DNA from: Caldithrix abyssi DSM 13497
GTDB taxonomy: Bacteria > Calditrichota > Calditrichia > Calditrichales > Calditrichaceae
Direction: 5' to 3'
DNA length: 64,000 bases
Assembly: GCF_001886815.1 (NCBI RefSeq)
Contig: NZ_CP018099.1
Location: forward strand, 3,036,501-3,100,500
The notes under the pieces are model-generated. The model was not told where the DNA came from. It saw only the letters and a program-made list of their open reading frames with translations, and searched no databases. This document shows positions 46,752 through 59,792 of this stretch, piece after piece. A program made the position numbers and the translations under genes. Within the stretch, counting starts at the first letter, position 1. Each line of letters starts with the position of its first letter.

Positions 46752-49256
46752 TTATACGCTTACTTTTTGATTGTTTAAACTTATTTTCTTCGGATAGGTT
46801 CTTGCCAGATGTCGTTGAATTCGCGCGATTAATGAATTCATATTGATGGGCTTGGTCACAAAATCATCGGCCCCATATTCAAAGCCTTTTAATTCGCTTT
46901 CCGTTCCATTCAAACTGGTAATGATCAGTACCGGCACATTCTCGGTTTCGGGGCTACTCCTCAAATGCTGTAGAAATTCATAACCATCCATATTGGGCAT
47001 CATCAGGTCTAATAAAATAATATCTGGAACCTTTTTATCCACCTGATCCAGGGCATCATAGCCATCTTCTGCTTCTCTTACCTTCCATCCTTTTTGTCGC
47101 TCCAGCATCTTTTTTAAAAGGGTTCTTGTAACCGCATAATCTTCTACCACCAGAATATCCACTTCGCGGTCTTCCGCCTTCTTTTCGGGGGCTGGCGGTG
47201 AAATTTTAGGCGCTTCACTGGATGCAGCCCTGTCTGGAACGCTGGTTTCTTTTTTAATTTCTTTTGCTAATTTTTTAATTTCGGATAAGGGATCTTGTGC
47301 CCCCTTTTTGTCTTTCACGCTTTTAGATGATTTTGGCGCGCTTTGCGGGACGCCCATTTCACCTTCCACGGTGGGCCCTGTCTTTGAGGCGGCCGTATCT
47401 TCGGCCTGTAAATCGTCATCCATTTTCAGGAGGTCTTCTTCTTTGTAAAATAATTCTTCATCCTCGTCTGCTTTCAAAGCAGATTTTTTTTCCTGAACGG
47501 TTCTTGGAGTCGATACTGATACTGGCTGAACGGACGTTTCTTCGTATTTGCATTTGATCGGAGTCAAATCTGGTTGAATGACGCGCAAAACTTCCTGATA
47601 ATCGGTGATGCCTTCGGCAACCAGCGACAGACCGTCTTCAAAAAGATTACGAAAGCCATGTTTTCTGGCGATGGAACGCAGTTCGCGCAGGGAGGCCTTA
47701 TTGTACAGGGCGTCTTTTAATTCGCGATTAATTAAAAGGATTTCATAAACGCCGGTACGTCCTTTGTATCCCGTGTAATTACAGGCTGCGCATCCTTCAG
47801 CGCTGTACACCTGATAATTTTCACATCCTAAATTCCTAAAAAAATGTATTAATCCTGGATCTAAAAGCTTAGAATCCACCGGCTTTTTGCATTGCATACA
47901 AAGTTTGCGCACCAGACGTTGCGCGATCACCGCCTGCAACGCCTCCGCCACCTTCGTCTCATCAATTCCCATATCGGCCAGACGCGTAATGGTGCCAAAC
48001 GTATCGTTGGTGTGTAAGGTACTGAGAACGAGGTGACCGGTCAAAGCGGCCTGGATGGCAATTTCTGCGGTTTCAGCATCGCGAATCTCTCCCACCAGAA
48101 TGACATCGGGATCCTGACGTAAAAATGAGCGCAGAGCCGAGGCAAAGGTGATGCCCGCTTTTTCATTAACCTGCACCTGATTTATGCCTTCAAACACATA
48201 TTCAATGGGGTCTTCCACCGTTAAAATATTGGTGGCTGAAGAACGCAGTCTATTAATGGCCGCATACAGGGTTGTACTTTTTCCGGAACCGGTAGGTCCG
48301 GTCACCAGAACCAATCCCTGGCGCACGGAGAACACCTTTTCCAGCTGCTGTAAATTAAAGCCCCGAATGCCGAGTTGTTCAAATGATACCATGGCCTTAC
48401 GTTTATCCAGCAATCGAATGACCACTTTCTCGCCGTAACTGGTTGGCAAAACCGAAACGCGCAAATCGATATCCGCATCATCGACAATGATTTTAGCCTT
48501 ACCGTCCTGCGGTTTTCTGGTTTCGGCGATGTTCAGGTTTGAAATGACCTTAATTCTGCTCACCAGCTGCGAATGCAGGGTTTTGGGCAGCTCCATAATG
48601 GTATGCATTACGCCATCGATGCGTAACCGCACCACCACTTCTTTTTCTCCGGCCTCGATGTGAATATCGCTGGCATCGTTGGCCACCGCCTCGGCAAAAA
48701 TCTGGTTTACCAGCTTAACAACGCCTTTTTCCTCAACGAAATCTTCCCCTGCAACCCGGACTTTAAGATTATGTCCATCTTTATTTACCAGAGTATCGAT
48801 CAACTCTTCCGGCGTGTAATACTCTTTAATTTTTCTTTGAACCTGTTCCAAAAGGGCAAAATAGGTCTTTACATACTTTCCGCTTATTAATTCAATCTCT
48901 TTTTCCGCTTCCAGATTATAGGGATTAAAGCAGGCAATGTGTACTTCGCTCTTATTTTGCCTGAAAGGAAATATCTGGTATTTTTCGCACAATTCTTTGG
49001 GAATGGTTTTAATCAGCTGCTGATCTATTTTGATTTTATCAAGATCGATTACCGGTATTTGTAATGCTTCTTCAATAAAAGTTATCAGATCTTCCTTTTG
49101 CAAATAGTTATTTTTTATTAACACATTAAAAAAGTATTTTTCTCCGGCGTAGCGACCGGCCAGCTCATCATACAATTTTTCATCTATGATCTGATAATAG
49201 AGCAAGGCCTTGACCAGCCAATCGTCTTCAAAAACATGTTTATGAGAAACCACCAT
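46752..49256 (-). CDS. pilB: PilB assembly ATPase fused to a C-terminal receiver domain
   Basis: 834 residues, against about 560-580 for ordinary PilB. An MshEN-like N-terminal domain (1-160) precedes the ATPase with Walker A TGPTGSGKS (319-327), Walker B (380-390) and a tetracysteine zinc site (Cys453, 456, 489, 492). A charged Ser/Pro/Lys-rich linker (about 575-695) joins a full CheY-like receiver (698-825) with acidic pair Glu705/Asp706, phosphoacceptor Asp750 (LLDLMMPNMDG), Thr780 and Lys802. Phosphorylation could therefore control pilus extension directly. It is the first gene of the pil locus. Confidence 0.95.
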   Translation of the reverse strand: MVVSHKHVFEDDWLVKALLYYQIIDEKLYDELAGRYAGEKYFFNVLIKNNYLQKEDLITFIEEALQIPVIDLDKIKIDQQLIKTIPKELCEKYQIFPFRQNKSEVHIACFNPYNLEAEKEIELISGKYVKTYFALLEQVQRKIKEYYTPEELIDTLVNKDGHNLKVRVAGEDFVEEKGVVKLVNQIFAEAVANDASDIHIEAGEKEVVVRLRIDGVMHTIMELPKTLHSQLVSRIKVISNLNIAETRKPQDGKAKIIVDDADIDLRVSVLPTSYGEKVVIRLLDKRKAMVSFEQLGIRGFNLQQLEKVFSVRQGLVLVTGPTGSGKSTTLYAAINRLRSSATNILTVEDPIEYVFEGINQVQVNEKAGITFASALRSFLRQDPDVILVGEIRDAETAEIAIQAALTGHLVLSTLHTNDTFGTITRLADMGIDETKVAEALQAVIAQRLVRKLCMQCKKPVDSKLLDPGLIHFFRNLGCENYQVYSAEGCAACNYTGYKGRTGVYEILLINRELKDALYNKASLRELRSIARKHGFRNLFEDGLSLVAEGITDYQEVLRVIQPDLTPIKCKYEETSVQPVSVSTPRTVQEKKSALKADEDEELFYKEEDLLKMDDDLQAEDTAASKTGPTVEGEMGVPQSAPKSSKSVKDKKGAQDPLSEIKKLAKEIKKETSVPDRAASSEAPKISPPAPEKKAEDREVDILVVEDYAVTRTLLKKMLERQKGWKVREAEDGYDALDQVDKKVPDIILLDLMMPNMDGYEFLQHLRSSPETENVPVLIITSLNGTESELKGFEYGADDFVTKPINMNSLIARIQRHLARTYPKKISLNNQKVSV

Positions 49257-49729: not shown

Positions 49730-51571
49730 CTATCTCCAGCGCCACACGCCCGGCCTTCGAGGACGCATGCTTCCATGGCCGGCCGTCGAGGGCTCGCTTC
49801 GCGCGTGTTTTTGACCAATTGCTTCTGGCACCGTTACTCTGGCCGCTTCCAGTTTTTGTTCGATGGAAAAGGCACGCTGGGCGGCGCGGATGATTTCCGG
49901 CTTCAATCCCTCCGCGGCAATTTCTTCGGTAAACTTCTTGCGGCCTTCGATCAGTTCCTTTAAATAGTTATTGATCTGTTCTTCGGAATAAAATCTGCGC
50001 ACATCGTATTCATGGAGGGGACGTCCTTCCACGGCCACAATGCCTTCGGTGCCCAGAATACCGACTTCGTACGTATTGGTGACGCGCAGATCGCCGCGCT
50101 GAATGGCGGCCATTAAGTTCAAAGGCACGCGTTCCACCTTGCGCACCAGTTTTTTGACGATCTTTCCGTTTTGCTCACTGGTTTCGATAATTTCCCCCAT
50201 GCCGCCCGTATTGTACATGACAAAGCGCACTTTATCGGGATACTTTTCTACTAACTTCATGACGATGTCATAAAAGCGATTGACTTTTACGCCGCGCGAT
50301 CCAATGATAAAAGGATCGGTGCCCACAATGCGCACCGATTCGCCGGCCTTTTCCGGATTGGATGCGTAGCTGTGCGTGGATTCGCCCCACAGATAGGCCA
50401 GTACGCCCTGTTCCGGCGTCAAGCGCTGGGCAAAGGGCATGATGGTATTGCGGCGCGTAATAAAGGCGAAAATAATGCCATCCATTTCATCTAACGAGGG
50501 CAGGTTAACCGACGGCGCGCTGATGCTGACCAGTTTTTTATTTTGTTCGACCATCAACCGTTTTCTGAAAATCACCGCCCGTCCGTTGCCGCACAGCGAT
50601 TCATCCAGAAAGTCGATTTCACCTCGATAGTTCATCATCACATTTTCAATAAGCGCGGACTTATGCACCAGGGCGTTGTACATGGCCTCTTGCTGATCGG
50701 GACGCACATCGGTTTTTACGTAAAAATTGTTTTCCGATCCCAGGGCCGATCCGTCGTCGCGCAAAAAGACGATATCGTCCTGACAGACTTCGGTCTTTTC
50801 GCCGCGCGTATGATCCAGCCCCAACTGGTGGCAGGACCAGGTGGATTTGCCGGTGGCGGTCATGCCGAACAAAAAGACGCCGTACTTTTTTAATCGGTTG
50901 TCCTGTGGATCGCGCACCGTAACGATTTTAGTGCCGGCATGCAGGCCCAACATGCCCTGTTCGTCGGCGCGCCACATGGCCTGACGTAAAAAGCCTTTTT
51001 TGTCTTCGCCTAGATAATCTGTGCCCAGCGCAATGTTTAAATTGTATTCGGGCAAAGCCAGAACCTGAGCGCGCATGATGTGCTCTTCCGGAATGTGCAG
51101 CATGATGAACTCCGGCCCCGGCCGACGCCCCACATCGAACATGGTGCTGGCCCACATATAGGCGTTGCGCACATTTTTAGGATCCGCCACCGAAACGTAC
51201 AAATTGCAGATCGGATTGTAATAATCATTGTTGCCCATCTGGCGGCGAATATGAACAAAGGGTAAGTTTTTAACCAGGTGCAGAACTTTTTTCAATTCTT
51301 CTTCATGATTTTCCAGGATTTTGATGTGCGAATCCAGCAATTTAGGCTGACGTACGCGCGGGCTGCCCAGGTAAACCGTTTTGGGCGCCAATCTGCTGGA
51401 AAATTTAGACATCCAGACATACGAATGAAAGCGTGACTTGTTGGCGTATTTACGCGCTTCCTTTTCCAGATAGCCCATATTTACTGTTTTGATGTTCGGG
51501 CCCTGTAAAAGCTGCCTCAATTCCTGATAAAACTGTTCGTAAAACGGTTCGTTGTAAAGCGCTTCGTACAT
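49730..51571 (-). CDS. Divergent ATP-type phosphoenolpyruvate carboxykinase-like protein
   Basis: 613 residues, longer than usual ATP-PEPCK (about 530). The core is recognisable: GMLGLHAGTKI with His211 at the metal-site position, P-loop GMTATGKST (236-244), kinase-2-like CQDDIVF (263-269), IDFLDESLCGNGRAVI, IMPFAQRLTPEQ and YNTGGMGE. Usual DDEHGW and TENTR signatures are altered, so PEP carboxykinase activity is uncertain. The last 25 residues or so (SEPSTAGHGSMRPRRPGVWR) come from GC-rich, repeat-like DNA and may be a recent extension. It lies 29 bp behind the aminotransferase-kinase fusion gene, implying oxaloacetate-related work. Confidence 0.75.
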   Translation of the reverse strand: MYEALYNEPFYEQFYQELRQLLQGPNIKTVNMGYLEKEARKYANKSRFHSYVWMSKFSSRLAPKTVYLGSPRVRQPKLLDSHIKILENHEEELKKVLHLVKNLPFVHIRRQMGNNDYYNPICNLYVSVADPKNVRNAYMWASTMFDVGRRPGPEFIMLHIPEEHIMRAQVLALPEYNLNIALGTDYLGEDKKGFLRQAMWRADEQGMLGLHAGTKIVTVRDPQDNRLKKYGVFLFGMTATGKSTWSCHQLGLDHTRGEKTEVCQDDIVFLRDDGSALGSENNFYVKTDVRPDQQEAMYNALVHKSALIENVMMNYRGEIDFLDESLCGNGRAVIFRKRLMVEQNKKLVSISAPSVNLPSLDEMDGIIFAFITRRNTIMPFAQRLTPEQGVLAYLWGESTHSYASNPEKAGESVRIVGTDPFIIGSRGVKVNRFYDIVMKLVEKYPDKVRFVMYNTGGMGEIIETSEQNGKIVKKLVRKVERVPLNLMAAIQRGDLRVTNTYEVGILGTEGIVAVEGRPLHEYDVRRFYSEEQINNYLKELIEGRKKFTEEIAAEGLKPEIIRAAQRAFSIEQKLEAARVTVPEAIGQKHARSEPSTAGHGSMRPRRPGVWRWR

Positions 51572-51600: not shown

Positions 51601-53949
51601 CTAACCGGTAATCATTTCTTTAAGCCGTTCGGCCAGCCGGGCCGGCGTCTGATTGGCCGTGTTCAGCTGAACGACTTTTACAAACTGCAAGAGTCGCAAA
51701 AATCGCTCCTGATGCTGCTTAAGACGCAATTCGTCATGCGGCAGCAAATAGGGATTGTAAAAAGGTTGATCTTTTCCCTGGCCGGGCATGGCCGCCCCGC
51801 TGCTGCTCCCTCTGCGCAAAAGCTGCAAAGCATGTTCCGCATCCAGCTCTTTTAATGGTTCTGCCAGCGGATCGTTGGTCAGTAAAAATAAAAACTGCAG
51901 ATCGATCCGCTTCACATGGCGTTCCATTCCCCCAATCCAGTAAGGATCGAGCATGGCCGTTGAGGTTTTTGAAGCCATAAAACAGTACGGCGCGCCGCGA
52001 TCCATTGAACATTGCTCGGCGTTTACGCAGTTTTGATATTCGCAATCAACGCGATTGGTGATCACGTTTTCGCATTTACACTTTTCAAACAGGGCTTCCA
52101 GCGCAGGAAAATATTCCGCATGTTGGGTGGGCAGGTAAAATTTACGTTCGGCCACATCGGCCGCGGCAAAACCTCCGCCAAAGCGCACGAACAAAAGATC
52201 ATTGCTGTGCAGAGCCATGTTTTCATCCTGTAAAAGCTGGTAAAACAGCGGCGTTTTTTGCGTGCCTCTGGGGCCGATCAAAACAAATCCGCGTCCCTGA
52301 AAGTCGCCGGAAAAACCACGCACTGTGTGTAAATCGAACAGGCGTTCGCCCAAATCGGCAACCAGGGTTAAAGCCAGGGAACGCAAAGCGCCGTAATAAT
52401 CGCTATTGAACAAAAGACCCGTGCTCGATTCCGAATGATAAAAAGCGTGTGGTTCGCGGCCCACCACGCCATCCACAGCGTAAATAACGCCGTGCGGTTC
52501 CAGGTCGGATTCCAGCTGGGCGGGATACCAGTTTTCAATCCAAAAATCGTTTAAGTGGGCGCTATTGGTGCGCAGCTGGATAATCAGCCCGTTAATATTG
52601 GCATTCCACTCAAAATACTGATTGAATTTTAAGTGGGCTTCGGCCTCGGCAATCAGCGCTTCTCGCTGTTCATAGTTGATCTTGCTTTCCAGCGGGGCCT
52701 TTTTGGGCACCTTTGTTCGATAATTGTTGAGTTGCACAAATTTTATTTTGGTCGGCGTTTTAAGGCGGCGCAGGGCTTCGGCCATGCGCTTCATACCTTT
52801 TTCGATCTGTTCCATAGAGGCCGAATAAGAGATGCGGATGTGTTGATCCGAGCCAAAGGCCGCCCCGGGCACCACCACCACATTAGCCTCGCGCAGTAAA
52901 TAGTAAGCCAGGCCGTAAGAATTGCGGATGTAATGTCCCTTATGCTCCTTGCCAAAATAGGCGGAGATATTGGGGAAGACATAAAAGGCCCCCTGCGGCT
53001 CGGTAACCGAAATATCGGGAATGGCGCGCAAACGCTGCACCACATAATTGCGCCTGCGCTGAAATTCTGCCACCATGCGCCCCACTTCGTACGATGGTCC
53101 TTTTAAAGCCTGCAGGGCGGCAAATTGTGAAATGGAATTGGCGTTTGAAGTGGAATGGCTTTGAATTTTGTTAGCGGCTTCCACAATTTCTTTTGGCCCG
53201 GCCAGATAACCAATGCGCCAGCCGGTCATGGAAAAGGCTTTGGAAAAACCGTTGATCAGAATGGTGCGTTCTTTTAATTTGGCGCTGATAGAGGCAAAAC
53301 TGGTAAAGCGGAAATTGTCATACACCAGTCTGGAGTAAATTTCATCGGCAATGATGAATATTTCTTCCTCCTCTAAAACTTTTGCCAGTTCCATCAGGTC
53401 GTCTTGACTGTAAGCGGCGCCCGTGGGATTGGATGGATTGCAAAGGATGAAAGCCCGCGTACTGGCCGAAATATTTTGTTTTAACTGCTCGGGCGTAAGG
53501 CGAAAGCCGTTTTCTTCATGCGTTTCCACAATCACCGGCCGCCCGCCGGCCAGTCGCACCATTTCCGGGTACGAAACCCAGTAGGGCGCGGGCACAATCA
53601 CCTCGTCGCCGTCGGAAATAAGAGCCATGATGACGTTAAAAATAGCCTGTTTAGCGCCATTGGTCACCAGAATCTGCTTTGCAGGATCGTATTCCACGCC
53701 GTGTTCTTTGTACAGATATTCGGCAATGGCTTTGCGCAGTTCCATGGTGCCGGCGTTCATGGTGTACCTGGTAATGTTTTGATCGATGGCCTGTTTTCCG
53801 GCGTCTTTGATGAACTGCGGCGTGGGAAAATCCGGTTCGCCAACGCTAAAATCGACCACGTCAATCCCCTGCGCGCGCATGGCAATCGCCTTGGCCGCAA
53901 TTTTCATGGTCGGCGAAACGCCAATATGTTTTATCCGTTCGCTAAGCAC
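51601..53949 (-). CDS. Aspartate aminotransferase fused to an HprK/PEPCK-like kinase domain
   Basis: 782 residues. Residues 1-395 are a complete class I aminotransferase of the aspartate type: NPSNPTG at 171-177, ADEIY at 201-205 and the PLP lysine in NGFSKAFSMTGWR (Lys236 or so). Residues 400-782 are a separate module with LFDLHTVRGF, a P-loop-like LIGPRGTQKT (557-566) and SNDLLFV downstream, the layout of HprK/PEPCK-type kinases. A Cys-rich insert (Cys624, 626, 636, 641, 647, 656) may bind metal. It precedes the PEPCK-like gene. The kinase substrate is unknown; frameshift fusion is unlikely because the linker is normal coding sequence. Confidence 0.88.
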   Translation of the reverse strand: MLSERIKHIGVSPTMKIAAKAIAMRAQGIDVVDFSVGEPDFPTPQFIKDAGKQAIDQNITRYTMNAGTMELRKAIAEYLYKEHGVEYDPAKQILVTNGAKQAIFNVIMALISDGDEVIVPAPYWVSYPEMVRLAGGRPVIVETHEENGFRLTPEQLKQNISASTRAFILCNPSNPTGAAYSQDDLMELAKVLEEEEIFIIADEIYSRLVYDNFRFTSFASISAKLKERTILINGFSKAFSMTGWRIGYLAGPKEIVEAANKIQSHSTSNANSISQFAALQALKGPSYEVGRMVAEFQRRRNYVVQRLRAIPDISVTEPQGAFYVFPNISAYFGKEHKGHYIRNSYGLAYYLLREANVVVVPGAAFGSDQHIRISYSASMEQIEKGMKRMAEALRRLKTPTKIKFVQLNNYRTKVPKKAPLESKINYEQREALIAEAEAHLKFNQYFEWNANINGLIIQLRTNSAHLNDFWIENWYPAQLESDLEPHGVIYAVDGVVGREPHAFYHSESSTGLLFNSDYYGALRSLALTLVADLGERLFDLHTVRGFSGDFQGRGFVLIGPRGTQKTPLFYQLLQDENMALHSNDLLFVRFGGGFAAADVAERKFYLPTQHAEYFPALEALFEKCKCENVITNRVDCEYQNCVNAEQCSMDRGAPYCFMASKTSTAMLDPYWIGGMERHVKRIDLQFLFLLTNDPLAEPLKELDAEHALQLLRRGSSSGAAMPGQGKDQPFYNPYLLPHDELRLKQHQERFLRLLQFVKVVQLNTANQTPARLAERLKEMITG

Positions 53950-53982: not shown

Positions 53983-55380
53983 CTACTCTTCTTCCCCGGA
54001 CAACTTATCTTTTAAAAACTTTTTAAGATCGGCTCCGGTTAGCGCTTCTACCACTTCCGGAAGCTGGGCAAGTATTTCTGCAACCTGCCCGGTCAGTTTG
54101 GAGGCGCCTAATTTTCCATCGTGTTCAATCATCACGATTTTATCCAGCTTGGAAAGAGGCTGAGCCACGGCAGAAGCCAGTTCCGGCATCTTTTCCAGAA
54201 TCATCTGGTAAAGGGCCGCCTGATTGTAGCTTTCGAAGGCTTTTGCTTTGGATTTCAGATTTTCTGCCTCGGCCTGGCCTAACAGGCGCAGGCGCTCGGC
54301 TTCGGCCCGGTCTTCGGCAATTTTGGCTTCAATTTTGGCCTGTGCTTCGCTTTTGATGCGATAGCTTTCGGCTTCGGTTTCCGTCAAAATTTGCGCCTTG
54401 CGCGCCTCGGCCGGTTTTATGATGTTGGCCTCCAGCTCCTTCTGTTTTTTGGCGATATTTAACTCTTCCAGCTTAATGCCTTCGTCCATTTCCAGTTTTT
54501 TAAGCTTGTACTCTTCTTTTTTCAATTCCTGTTCAATGCGGTAGCGTTCCAGTTCGTATGCCATGTCGGCCATGGCTTTTTTGCGATTGACTTCCACCTG
54601 CGATTCAGACTTCATGGCCTCGTTTTGCCAGTTTTGCTTGGCGATCAGGGCTTCAGCCTGCAAACGGGCGATCTCCGCTTCTTTTTTGGCCTCGGCCGAA
54701 CGAATGGTGATGTCGCGATTCTTTTCGGCCTGATCGACCTCGGCTTCGTACTTGGCTTTAGTAATTTGCGGGCGACTTAAAGCCTCTAAATAGCCCTGGG
54801 TGTCCACCACTTCGTTCAAACCAAAGGACATGAGCACCAACCCCAGATTGTTAAAATCGGCCTGCGCGTCGCCAGATACCCTGGCCACAAACTCGCTGCG
54901 TTTAGTGAACAAATCTTCTACGGTAAACTGACCTATCAATTCGCGCACCTTACCCTCTAAAACGGTTTCAGCCACTTCGCGGATGCCCTCGGTGCCTTTG
55001 CTTAAAAAATTGGTAATGGCCAGGTAAAGGGCGTAATCGCTGGTGTCGATGCGCACCTGAGCGGCAAATTCCACCGACACGGGAATGGAATTTTGCGTCA
55101 TGACTTCTGCAATTTTACCATGGATGGGAATCACTTCGATGGGCAGGCGCTCTACGGTTTCGAACAGAGGATTAACAAAAGTGCCTCCGCCAATCCGATA
55201 GCGGAAGCCAATTTCCTTGACCGTACCGTCTGGCATGGTTATCCTGCCTTTTTTACCACCAGAAATGATTAAGATTTCATTGGGACCGACTTTTCGATAT
55301 TGTCTGGACAAAAACCAGATGAAGAGCGCAATGAGCAGAATTACTGCTCCAATGACGACAAACAGCGTTAGCGACGACAT
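53983..55380 (-). CDS. Flotillin-like SPFH protein
   Basis: About 465 residues: one N-terminal membrane helix (LTLFVVIGAVILLIALFIWF), an SPFH domain (VGPNEILIISGG to LVLMSFGLNEVVDTQGYLEAL), then a long Ala/Glu/Lys-rich coiled coil (about 215-400) with the EAE repeats typical of flotillins. Such proteins scaffold membrane microdomains. Two adjacent ATGs are possible; the second fits the AGGAGG spacing better. No NfeD partner is seen in the window. Confidence 0.92.
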   Translation of the reverse strand: MSSLTLFVVIGAVILLIALFIWFLSRQYRKVGPNEILIISGGKKGRITMPDGTVKEIGFRYRIGGGTFVNPLFETVERLPIEVIPIHGKIAEVMTQNSIPVSVEFAAQVRIDTSDYALYLAITNFLSKGTEGIREVAETVLEGKVRELIGQFTVEDLFTKRSEFVARVSGDAQADFNNLGLVLMSFGLNEVVDTQGYLEALSRPQITKAKYEAEVDQAEKNRDITIRSAEAKKEAEIARLQAEALIAKQNWQNEAMKSESQVEVNRKKAMADMAYELERYRIEQELKKEEYKLKKLEMDEGIKLEELNIAKKQKELEANIIKPAEARKAQILTETEAESYRIKSEAQAKIEAKIAEDRAEAERLRLLGQAEAENLKSKAKAFESYNQAALYQMILEKMPELASAVAQPLSKLDKIVMIEHDGKLGASKLTGQVAEILAQLPEVVEALTGADLKKFLKDKLSGEEE

Positions 55381-55510
55381 CATTCCTCCTGTTTGCTAAA
55401 ATGTTTCAACAACAATTCAAGTACAATTTAATGAAAAAAATAATTATTACCAATTCGATTTTTCACTTTTTTTCACAATATAGGAAAATTTTACTGCGCG
55501 GGGGGGATGG

Positions 55511-56333: not shown

Positions 56334-56376
56334 ATTCGGGCACAGCCTCCCGCTCCGCGTGATAATTTTTAATTGA
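56334..56376 (-). repeat. Inverted copy of the GGGAGGCTGTGCCCG repeat
   Basis: ATTCGGGCACAGCCTCCCGC followed by TCCGCGTGATAATTTTTAAT, just upstream of the patatin gene. It is nearly identical, in the same orientation, to 59925-59968, so the two copies bracket the lipid operon. Confidence 0.85.
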
Positions 56377-56432
56377 CTCATTATGTTTTTTTTGCAAGAT
56401 TGTTAAACAACAACAAAAATATGGAGCAATAT

Positions 56433-57347
56433 ATGGCGGAATTAGGAGTGGCCCTTGGTGGGGGCGGCGCACGTGGGCTGGCGCACATCGGGGTTTTAAA
56501 AGTACTGGAAAGGGAAAAAATCAAAATTCAGGCCATTACTGGCTGCAGCATGGGCGCCATTGTCGGCGGACTTTACGCCTATCTTGGCGAGGCGCAAAAA
56601 GTGGAAGATTTCATTCGCGAAATTCTAAATAGTCCTAAAATAAAGGAGTTGGGGCTCGATCAACTCAGCGAAAATAAAAACACCGATAAGGGCTTTTTTG
56701 AACAGTTTTTCGACTTTATCGATATTCGCTTTAAAGCGGTTCAATCTCTCGGTCGTCTCTCATTTTTCGACGAGGCAACCACAAACCTCATTTTCGATTT
56801 TATGCCAGATGTGCCCATCGAAGAGCTGCCCATCCCTTTTTCGGCCATTGCTACCGATCTGGTCTCCGGTCATGAGGTTAATTTCACCGCCGGCAGCCTG
56901 CGGGAGGTTTTAAAAGCCAGCGCCGCCATTCCAGGTATTTTTCCACCTGTAGAAATTGACCATTATCTGCTGGTCGATGGCAGCGCCTCCGAAAGTGTTC
57001 CCGCAGGAAAGGTCAAAGAGATCGGCGCTGACCGCGTACTGGCCGTTAATGTTTCGCGGGACATCACGATTTTCGAAAAGCCGAAGAATTTGATAGAGAT
57101 CCTGTTCAGGGCCGAAGACATCACCAGCCATCAACTTTCGCAGATTCGTCTGAAAGAAGCAGACCTGGTAATCACGCCTCGCGTGCAGAACCTCTCATGG
57201 GTCGATTTTGATAAGATCGATTACCTGGTAGCCGCCGGAGAAATCGCAGCGCTGGAAAATCTCGAAGACATAGAAAACCTGGCTAACCGCAACAGTTACC
57301 TTCTGGAAATGGAGCAGTTTATTAAACGATTGAGAGGAAATATTTGA
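56433..57347 (+). CDS. Patatin-like phospholipase
   Basis: 304 residues from the ATG at 56433, which follows GGAG by 6 nt; the open frame extends upstream into repeat DNA. The patatin hallmarks are an oxyanion-hole GGGGARG near the start, the nucleophile elbow GCSMG and the dyad Asp in LLVDGSASESVP. It resembles the RssA/YlbK group. It probably removes acyl chains from membrane phospholipids. The next gene starts immediately at its stop codon, followed by a phosphodiesterase, which fits a phospholipid-breakdown operon. Confidence 0.93.
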   Translation: MAELGVALGGGGARGLAHIGVLKVLEREKIKIQAITGCSMGAIVGGLYAYLGEAQKVEDFIREILNSPKIKELGLDQLSENKNTDKGFFEQFFDFIDIRFKAVQSLGRLSFFDEATTNLIFDFMPDVPIEELPIPFSAIATDLVSGHEVNFTAGSLREVLKASAAIPGIFPPVEIDHYLLVDGSASESVPAGKVKEIGADRVLAVNVSRDITIFEKPKNLIEILFRAEDITSHQLSQIRLKEADLVITPRVQNLSWVDFDKIDYLVAAGEIAALENLEDIENLANRNSYLLEMEQFIKRLRGNI

Positions 57348-58916
57348 TTGAATCGTGATTATTTCGTCCAACAGCTTGAGCGCTCTGCCGACAGCCCCTG
57401 GGATGTGCTGATTATTGGCGGCGGCGCCACGGGCCTGGGCTGTGCGGTGGATTCTGCCACGCGCGGATTTAAAACCCTGCTCGTTGAACAGGCCGATTTT
57501 GCCAAAGGCACCTCCAGCCGCAGCACCAAACTGGTGCATGGCGGCGTACGCTACCTGGCGCAGGGCGATGTGTCGCTGGTTTTTGAAGCCCTGCACGAAC
57601 GCGGCCTGCTCATGCAAAACGCGCCGCACCTGGTCAAAAATCAGCCTTTTATCATCCCTCTGTACGAATGGTGGGAAGGCCCTTTTTACAACATCGGCAT
57701 GAAGGTTTACGACCTGATGGCCGGCAAATTAGGCTTTGGACCTTCTGAAAAATTGAGCAAAGAAGAAACATTAAACGCCATTCCCAATCTGGATCAGCAC
57801 GGTTTAATGGGCGGGGTGATCTACTTCGACGGCCAGTTTGACGACGCCCGCCTGGCCGTTAACCTGGCCCAAACCGCGGTGGATCATGGCGCCACGGTCT
57901 TAAATTATTTCAAAGTTATCGAACTGCTTAAAGACGCTTCCGGCCTTTTAGAAGGCGTTGTCATCCGCGATATGGAAAGCGGGCAGAGCTTTACCGTTAA
58001 AGCCAAAACCATCATTAACGCCACCGGCGTTTTTTCGGATCAGATTCGCCAGCTGGATGAACCGGGAATGCCGCCTTCCATTGTGCCCAGCCAGGGCGTT
58101 CATTTGATGGTTGATCAAAGTTTTCTGCAGGGAAATTCTTCGATCATGATTCCGCACACCGACGACGGACGCGTCCTGTTTGCCGTTCCCTGGCACAACG
58201 AAGTGATCATTGGCACAACCGACACGCCTGTCAGCGAGATTACATTAGAGCCGCGGGCAAAAGATGAAGAAATTGAGTTTTTGCTAACCACATCCGCCCG
58301 CTATTTAAAAAAAGATCCTTTGGCTTCCGACGTTTTAAGCGTCTTTGCCGGCCTGCGGCCCTTAGCCGCGCCACAGGGTTCCGCTGCAAAAACCAAAGAT
58401 ATTTCCCGTCGGCACCAAATCACCATTTCACGCTCCGGATTAATCACCGTCACCGGCGGCAAGTGGACTACCTACCGCAAAATGGCGCAGGAAACCATCG
58501 ACAGGGCCATTCTGGTGGGCGGCCTGCAAGAAAAAGATTGCGTCACCAAACAGCTGCCCATTCACGGTTACCGCTTAAACACCCATTTTGATGAGCCGCT
58601 CTACTACTACGGCGACGATCGGCCTCAAATCGAATCGCTGATCAATGCGCAGCCCACATTACGTGAACGGCTTCACCCTGCGCTGCCCTATCTTAAGGCC
58701 GAAGTAATCTGGGCCACACGCCAGGAAATGGCGCGCACGGTGGAAGATTTTCTGGCGCGTCGCTCGCGGGCGCTTTTCTTAAACGCCCGGGCCAGTATGG
58801 AAATGGCTCCCATTGTGGCGCAGTTGATGGCCGGCGAATTGAATCAATCCAATCAATGGATCGAAACACAAATCGAACAATTCAAAAACCTGGCAAAACA
58901 CTATTTACTGGAATAA
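57348..58916 (+). CDS. glpD: FAD-dependent glycerol-3-phosphate dehydrogenase
   Basis: 522 residues. The FAD-binding motif DVLIIGGGATGLGCAVDSA lies near the N-terminus, followed by GTSSRSTKLVHGGVRYL, the GlpD signature; PWHNEVIIGTTDTP and VTGGKWTTYRKMA also fit. It oxidises glycerol-3-phosphate to DHAP and passes electrons to quinone. The start is a TTG directly after the patatin TGA, with GAGGAA about 9 nt upstream. It supplies the last step of the lipid-headgroup route and links it to respiration. Confidence 0.95.
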   Translation: MNRDYFVQQLERSADSPWDVLIIGGGATGLGCAVDSATRGFKTLLVEQADFAKGTSSRSTKLVHGGVRYLAQGDVSLVFEALHERGLLMQNAPHLVKNQPFIIPLYEWWEGPFYNIGMKVYDLMAGKLGFGPSEKLSKEETLNAIPNLDQHGLMGGVIYFDGQFDDARLAVNLAQTAVDHGATVLNYFKVIELLKDASGLLEGVVIRDMESGQSFTVKAKTIINATGVFSDQIRQLDEPGMPPSIVPSQGVHLMVDQSFLQGNSSIMIPHTDDGRVLFAVPWHNEVIIGTTDTPVSEITLEPRAKDEEIEFLLTTSARYLKKDPLASDVLSVFAGLRPLAAPQGSAAKTKDISRRHQITISRSGLITVTGGKWTTYRKMAQETIDRAILVGGLQEKDCVTKQLPIHGYRLNTHFDEPLYYYGDDRPQIESLINAQPTLRERLHPALPYLKAEVIWATRQEMARTVEDFLARRSRALFLNARASMEMAPIVAQLMAGELNQSNQWIETQIEQFKNLAKHYLLE

Positions 58917-58919
58917 GCC

Positions 58920-59792
58920 ATGGAAGTTGAATCCAAACAAACCACGCTCATTGTCGCCCATCGCGGCGCTTCACACGCCGCGCCGGAAAACACGATACCC
59001 GCCTTTAAACAGGCCTTTGCAGAAAAAGCCGACTTCATCGAAGGCGATTTCTGGATGACGGCTGACCGACAAATCGTTTGCATTCACGACCCCAACACCG
59101 CCCGCGTAACCAATCAAAAATTTAATCTGGATGTGCGCCGCTCCACTTTGCGGCAATTAAAACAACTGGACGTGGGAAGCTGGAAGGGCCAACAATTTAA
59201 AGGCGCCGCCATTCCAACGTTGCAAGAACTTCTCGACATGCTGCCTGCGGACAAAGGCCTTTTTGTCGAATTAAAGGATACACGCCCCGCCTTTTTAGAA
59301 CGTTTAAAAGAAATTTTCACACAATACGGCATGGAACCTCAACGCCTGCGTTTAATCGCCTTTGATCCGGATCTGGTCAAAATGACGCGGAAAGTATTTC
59401 CGGACTTTAAAATTTACTGGCTCTACAACTGGTACAAAGTAAAAGAAACAGGGGATTTTTCCAATACGCCGCATGAGATTTTGCGCATGCTTGAACAACT
59501 ACCCTGCGACGGCCTGAACATCAATCCCTTTCCCTGGATCGATCTTTCGTTCGTCCAGAATCTGCGCCAGTTGAACATGGACTTTTGCGTGTACAACGTC
59601 AATTCTTTTGATGAATTGTTAAAACTCCTTACGCTGGGCGTTGACGCCATCGCCACAGACCATCCGGCCAAACTGCGACAACAATTAGAAAAATACTTCA
59701 ACCCGCTTCCTCTCTCCCGCACTAAAAACGAAGAATTAAAAGTAAAAGAAAACGGCGATTACACCTTTCGCAACCATCCGATTGAGGATTGA
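58920..59792 (+). CDS. Glycerophosphodiester phosphodiesterase (GDPD)
   Basis: 290 residues of the GDPD TIM barrel: VAHRGASHAAPENTIPAF, IEGDFWMTADRQIVCIHDP and LFVELKD contain the catalytic His pair and metal-binding Glu/Asp. No signal peptide is visible, so it is cytoplasmic (UgpQ-like). It releases glycerol-3-phosphate from glycerophosphodiesters, the substrate of the GlpD encoded 3 bp upstream. The final 25 residues or so are charged and not part of the barrel. Confidence 0.93.
   Translation: MEVESKQTTLIVAHRGASHAAPENTIPAFKQAFAEKADFIEGDFWMTADRQIVCIHDPNTARVTNQKFNLDVRRSTLRQLKQLDVGSWKGQQFKGAAIPTLQELLDMLPADKGLFVELKDTRPAFLERLKEIFTQYGMEPQRLRLIAFDPDLVKMTRKVFPDFKIYWLYNWYKVKETGDFSNTPHEILRMLEQLPCDGLNINPFPWIDLSFVQNLRQLNMDFCVYNVNSFDELLKLLTLGVDAIATDHPAKLRQQLEKYFNPLPLSRTKNEELKVKENGDYTFRNHPIED

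Follow-up and report, generated by a model that had tools for sequence, protein, structure and literature searches.

A gene of Caldithrix abyssi DSM 13497 encodes an aspartate aminotransferase (AspAT) fused in frame to a C-terminal domain (CTD) with the predicted fold of phosphoenolpyruvate carboxykinase (PEPCK) and an eroded active site. It lies in a stretch of 64,000 nucleotides, hereafter the window, between a flotillin gene and a gene for a divergent PEPCK, PEPCKL (Table 1). The conservation of the fusion together with the flotillin and, often, PEPCKL suggests an undescribed metabolic module. We propose, giving the idea an even chance, that this module is membrane-associated and acts along the path from aspartate through oxaloacetate to PEP, with the CTD as a ligand-binding or docking pseudoenzyme. 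A search of the open-licence literature found no paper describing the fusion or the flotillin-AspAT-PEPCK cluster.

Table 1. Features of the fusion locus in the window
Feature	Position	Strand	Basis or remark
AspAT::CTD fusion ORF	51601-53949	-	782 aa, GTG start, intact, no internal stop
AspAT domain, fusion residues 1-395	52765..53949	-	Pfam, NCBIfam, PDB homologues, motifs
CTD, fusion residues 396-782, eroded PEPCK-fold domain	51604..52764	-	AlphaFold2, Foldseek, hhalign
Degenerate P-loop GPRGTQKT, residues 559-566	52252..52275	-	Glycine preceding lysine replaced
Four-Cys insert C-x4-C-x5-C-x8-C (C636, C641, C647, C656)	51982..52044	-	Conservation across 43 CTDs
Flotillin (SPFH/Band_7 + Flot)	53983..55383	-	Pfam; directly upstream of fusion, 33 nt gap
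PEPCKL, divergent PEPCK, 613 aa	49730..51571	-	Pfam, Foldseek, motifs; starts 29 nt past fusion stop
C-terminal tail of PEPCKL, RPRRPGxWRWR	49733-49765	-	Nearly invariant, basic-aromatic
PilB-type secretion ATPase (MshEN + T2SSE) with C-terminal response-regulator receiver	46752-49256	-	Response_reg 9e-31

The two halves of the protein belong to one true reading frame. The same frame, ~770-800 aa long, was seen again in dozens of independent genomes, which excludes chance or sequencing error and rules out a frameshift or assembly artefact as the source of the fusion. The CTDs of fusion homologues are 45-76% identical in the close set, and as little as about 34% identical in the wider set, and the fusion is present in Calditrichota, Ignavibacteria-type, Bacteroidota-labelled and Acidobacteriota/Aminicenantes genomes. 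No standalone CTD was found among the homologues collected, the short frames being contig edges. In a tree of AspAT domains the fused proteins are not dispersed among single-domain ones (the separating branch is weak, 56/90), and the fusion may have had a single origin. Two entries in the collection deserve mention on their own account. The locus on JAGHBR010000530.1 (L010), labelled Caldisericaceae, matches a genome from the window's genus and is likely mislabelled. At L170 (G029:C1:2118160-2119278) the AspAT match falls within an open frame of 1245 aa, which may be a further fusion of an aminotransferase.

The N-terminal domain matched Pfam Aminotran_1_2 (E 7e-81) and the NCBIfam model for aspartate transaminase (440.6 bits, short of the equivalog cut-off of 617), in agreement with the full PLP aminotransferase of the original prediction. 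Its closest solved relatives are 1j32 (E 1e-107), 5wmh (E 4e-107) and 1bjw, which we take to be, respectively, the AspAT of Phormidium, the bifunctional AspAT/prephenate aminotransferase of Arabidopsis and the AspAT of Thermus. The domain contains SKAFSMTG (236-243), GAKQ (98-101) and HIRISY (370-375), which hold the PLP lysine, the acidic-substrate lysine and the carboxylate arginine known from class Ib AspATs, as well as NPSNPTG and ADEIYS. Residues 1-395 thus have the fold-type I, the PLP lysine and the acidic-substrate Lys/Arg motifs of class Ib, and align end to end with the solved AspATs and AspAT/prephenate aminotransferases of that class (1bjw, 1j32, 5wmh), substrate-binding motifs included. 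The known enzymes are single-domain, whereas here a PEPCK-fold domain is permanently attached to the C-terminus. We confidently predict from these features that residues 1-395 interconvert aspartate and oxaloacetate. The next best-scoring aminotransferase of the window genome is only 31% identical to this domain.

PEPCKL was recognized by Pfam PEPCK_ATP (E 1.8e-22, 80.1 bits, cut-off 26.5), as had been anticipated for the gene following the fusion. Its score with NCBIfam NF006821, 283.8 bits, lies below the cut-off of 369, and its predicted model, weaker than that of the CTD (pLDDT 74, low near the P-loop), matched PEPCK in a Foldseek search of the PDB (E 7e-23) with about 12-19% identity to solved PEPCKs. 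The catalytic motifs align with those of canonical PEPCK (hhalign E 4e-11; for the canonical types see PMC8100219). In the profile alignment, the catalytic residues Y207, K213, H232, K254, D268-D269, K288 and R333 all have equivalents in PEPCKL, that of R65 being plausible only, and the motifs GTDYLGEDKK, LHAG, GMTATGKS, QDD, FYVK and NGR are conserved. PEPCKL therefore shares overall fold and catalytic motifs with ATP-PEPCK (PF01293) and differs from it by its strong divergence and by the extra basic tail, a possible site of contact with the membrane or a partner. The tail is absent from the profile match of a second PEPCKL clade.

The distribution of these genes was surveyed in 297 Acidobacteriota genomes, with PEPCKL called above 700 bits and with absences that depend on thresholds and genome completeness. 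PEPCKL was found in 24 of the 297, and in 20 of these 24 neither ATP- nor GTP-PEPCK passed the thresholds applied. Thirty-five genomes carried the fusion; 14 of the 35 were without PEPCKL and, among these 14, GTP-PEPCK was present in 12. For the exclusion between PEPCKL and canonical PEPCK, Fisher tests gave p values of 2.5e-11 over all genomes and 1.4e-4 among those with the fusion; for the presence of the fusion in 21 of the 24 PEPCKL genomes the p value was 5e-20. The genomes being related and some of them incomplete, these values are descriptive only. The near mutual exclusion suggests that PEPCKL performs the PEPCK reaction. Because the catalytic motifs are kept and the gene appears to displace canonical PEPCK, PEPCKL is probably a divergent but active enzyme interconverting oxaloacetate and PEP. 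Outside Acidobacteriota the displacement argument does not hold, since the window genome also holds a canonical ATP-PEPCK elsewhere, as do most PEPCKL-bearing Calditrichota; that PEPCKL might be the sole PEPCK of the window genome was thereby ruled out.

Calditrichota without the fusion provided a further comparison. In four such loci (L180, L181, L182, L183) a 405-aa aminotransferase abuts or overlaps a canonical 550-aa PEPCK, and L181 has aminotransferase, PEPCK, AspAT and pilB in succession, separated only by short gaps. PEPCKL is followed downstream by a pilB orthologue in the window and in L014, and AspAT has one beside it in L180 and L181; the products in L180, L181 and L014 share the C-terminal region of the window PilB. 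Hence, at the syntenic site, Calditrichota without the fusion have an unfused AspAT next to a canonical PEPCK, and the clustering of AspAT with PEPCK recurs here with a non-orthologous PEPCK. Together with the exclusion between PEPCKL and canonical PEPCK, this lends comparative support to the link from aspartate to oxaloacetate to PEP that had been put forward from the window alone.

The most constant partner of the fusion, overlooked in the original prediction, is the flotillin. The upstream gene product shares both Band_7 (88.5 bits, E 7e-25) and Flot (29.7 bits, E 7.6e-7, cut-off 27) with bacterial flotillins of the SPFH/Band_7 type, and a flotillin gene is found immediately upstream of the fusion in 51 of the 56 loci, of which a few are duplicates, more often than any other neighbour. 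Three of the others (L008, L021, L027) reach a contig edge first, and in L012 the sequence extends a mere 467 bp upstream; in L026 the absence of an upstream flotillin seems genuine. The order flotillin, AspAT::CTD, PEPCKL occurs in several phylum-level groups. In Calditrichota, Ignavibacteria and part of the Aminicenantes, most group I loci (defined below) have PEPCKL downstream in the orientation of the fusion; in a second arrangement, seen in other Acidobacteriota, PEPCKL is divergent to, and adjoins, the flotillin gene, and its profile match ends before the basic tail. In the window, the spacing of the three genes is consistent with one operon; in a scan of the region for promoters and terminators, promoter-like sites were no more frequent than in shuffled sequences. 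The pairing of fusion and PEPCKL noted at the outset is thus conserved across phyla, although PEPCKL is not an obligatory neighbour, being absent from the 14 Acidobacteriota genomes mentioned above. Neighbours in Aminicenantes (lipid A acyltransferase, glycosyltransferase, epimerase, RNase PH, SIS) had no clear pathway link. Well-known flotillin operons carry NfeD, and an AspAT-PEPCK partner of flotillin was not found in the literature searched.

Could the aminotransferase be a housekeeping aspartate/prephenate enzyme that the CTD, as a structural appendage, brings to flotillin microdomains, with PEPCKL as a mere neighbour that need not use oxaloacetate? Such an arrangement would account for the flotillin-fusion pair being more constant than PEPCKL, and would suit an AspAT domain that is close to bifunctional AspAT/prephenate aminotransferases and has only a distant second in its genome. 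It would leave unaccounted for the strong association of the fusion with PEPCKL genomes, the two different arrangements that keep the genes together, the recurrence of AspAT-PEPCK clustering with a non-orthologous PEPCK and the invariant presumed active-site residues of the CTD described below. We consider it unlikely.

The CTD alone had no significant match by sequence in Pfam, NCBIfam or the PDB. An AlphaFold2 model computed with 23 homologues had a pLDDT of 82.9 and a pTM of 0.84, and was poor mainly in the N-terminal linker and in the Cys-rich insert (CTD residues 235-259). The best 50 matches listed by Foldseek against the PDB were all PEPCKs, ATP-PEPCK ranking first; the top match (E 7.4e-17, TM 0.75 by query length) covered most of the CTD. 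In addition, a CTD profile aligned colinearly with canonical Calditrichota PEPCK over 343 columns (hhalign, E 5e-5). Family models gave weak matches of both kinds in the 41 CTDs scanned: TIGR00679 (HprK) in 24 (best 6.7e-5), HprK_rel_A (best 3.9e-7), HprK_rel_B (best 2.6e-5) and the PEPCK model NF006821 in 12 (best 5.6e-6). In ten CTDs inspected singly, the HprK matches spanned about 45-60 residues near the P-loop, as against about 130-170 residues for the better matches to PEPCK; on CTDs scanned in this manner PF07475 reached at most 20.4 bits and TIGR00679 at most 22 bits, below the HPr kinase family cut-offs of 33.3 and 240. The best PDB sequence matches were HprK chains (E 0.007-0.025). 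From the uniformly PEPCK structural matches listed and the weak HprK and PEPCK sequence matches, the CTD is placed in the HprK/PEPCK superfamily, with its type of P-loop fold, and PEPCK is the closest overall fold of the model. The fold search, which had been named as the test of an HprK/PEPCK relation, thus found one, to PEPCK (E 7e-17). The earlier description of the domain as HprK-like holds for the superfamily and fails for the overall fold: HprK was ruled out as the best match by the 50 listed structures, even though the sequence models near the P-loop favour it. That the CTD arose from PEPCKL by recent duplication was also rejected, direct profile comparison being weak (probability 1.8%, E 0.027).

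Relative to ATP-PEPCK (PF01293; 1j3b of T. thermophilus, 1ayl of E. coli), the CTD shares the fold (TM about 0.70-0.75 by query length) and colinear motifs, and differs in its size of about 390 aa, its eroded P-loop and metal-site residues, its four-Cys insert and its fusion to AspAT. With HprK and the HprK-related kinases A/B (TIGR00679, TIGR04352, TIGR04355) it has in common the short stretch near the P-loop and an 'LHG..VD..G.G' strand; overall architecture and partners differ.

The motifs first noticed in the window CTD are all present, as LHTVRG (about 540-545), GPRGTQKT and HSND (581-584). Profile scores split the CTDs into group I (34 sequences, including that of the window) and group II (9 sequences), and their residues were mapped onto PEPCK (E. 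coli numbering) by profile alignment, not superposition. The residue before the P-loop lysine in the 34 group I members is K in 23, R in 4, G in 3, H in 2, N in 1 and Q in 1; the glycine is thus replaced in 31/34, with the lysine itself retained in 33/34. In group II this lysine is Arg in 9/9. The position of H232, the His common to HprK and PEPCK, is occupied by Arg in 34/34 members of group I and by His in 8/9 of group II, and that of K213 by Ser in 29/43 CTDs and Lys in 6/43, Ser prevailing in both groups. The CTD therefore departs from the intact P-loop (GxxGTGK[ST]) of active PEPCK and, as mapped by profile alignment, from its Mn2+ ligands K213 and H232. One CTD (L100) has an intact Walker A, GPPGTGKT, so that not all CTDs need have lost nucleotide binding, which may persist in some of them such as this one.

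Among the invariant residues are N67, R207, K208, E232, N233, D273, W276 and N368 (CTD numbering), the basic and Asn residues of which presumably form an anion site. Different components of a common catalytic machinery are missing from group I and from group II, while many residues are invariant, and this suggests a CTD that still binds a ligand or docks and no longer catalyses the PEPCK reaction. It would not simply be a docking domain for PEPCKL, given the 14 fusion genomes without the latter, and the idea of an obligatory PEPCKL dock was weakened accordingly. The Cys-rich insert noted originally is real: C636, C641, C647 and C656 are kept in 42/43, 40/43, 43/43 and 42/43 CTDs, respectively. 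It is a candidate Zn or Fe-S site, and was modelled metal-free, with low confidence in that segment.

These substitutions bear on the earlier suggestion that the CTD is an active kinase for a metabolite or protein, responding to nitrogen/carbon status. Such an enzyme would be HprK-related and might phosphorylate, for instance, PEPCKL or the attached AspAT domain. The HprK-related models closest to the P-loop, the HprK chains among PDB sequence matches and the lysine retained in nearly all of group I would suit such a kinase; yet, in the CTDs inspected singly, the matches to those models are short and far below curated cut-offs, no HprK is found among the 50 structures listed, and the His common to the two enzymes has been replaced in all of group I, as has the P-loop lysine in all of group II. 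Because the catalytic motifs have been eroded in two different ways, we regard an active kinase as quite unlikely. Very improbable is a new kinase or carboxykinase for another keto-acid supplied by the aminotransferase, with the CTD active only in a heteromer with PEPCKL: the low identity of PEPCKL to solved PEPCKs, its own P-loop variant and its special tail would allow for it, but PEPCK carboxylate- and metal-binding motifs align in PEPCKL, canonical PEPCK appears to be displaced by it in Acidobacteriota, and the fusion also occurs without it.

In the module that we favour, the flotillin would be the membrane scaffold, the AspAT domain would supply or consume oxaloacetate by exchange with aspartate, and PEPCKL would exchange oxaloacetate and PEP, so that amino-acid nitrogen exchange would be coupled to the PEP-oxaloacetate node. 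Any channelling along this path, as first suggested, is conjectural. The CTD would be a PEPCK-fold pseudoenzyme that kept the fold and the presumed anion-site residues; erosion of its P-loop and metal site makes ligand binding or docking likelier than catalysis. Most likely it would bind a PEP-, oxaloacetate- or nucleotide-like ligand and gate the aminotransferase, or dock its partner enzyme. A more elaborate version, which we advance only tentatively, is a flotillin-anchored metabolon in which the pseudo-PEPCK senses PEP, nucleotide or, through the four-Cys site, redox state to gate nitrogen-carbon flux, with PEPCKL as a third and very divergent line of PEPCK that can take the place of canonical ATP- and GTP-PEPCK alike.

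In PEPCK-type C4 photosynthesis, aspartate is converted to oxaloacetate and then to PEP by AspAT and PEPCK. The likeness to the proposed module is one of chemistry alone, with two enzymes; the C4 pathway is eukaryotic and has no fusion, pseudo-PEPCK domain or flotillin. If correct, our proposal would mean that several phyla, largely uncultivated, organise the PEP-oxaloacetate-aspartate node in an undescribed way. It would bring to light a divergent branch of PEPCK, one that falls short of the threshold of an annotation model, and a metabolic enzyme that contains a PEPCK-fold pseudoenzyme as an integral part. It would also give a flotillin scaffold a nameable cargo; as few flotillin cargoes are known, the module makes the scaffold question directly testable.

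Elsewhere in the window, on the opposite strand, positions 56373-59792 (+) encode patatin-like, glycerol-3-phosphate dehydrogenase-like and glycerophosphodiester phosphodiesterase-like proteins in a row, as judged by eye.
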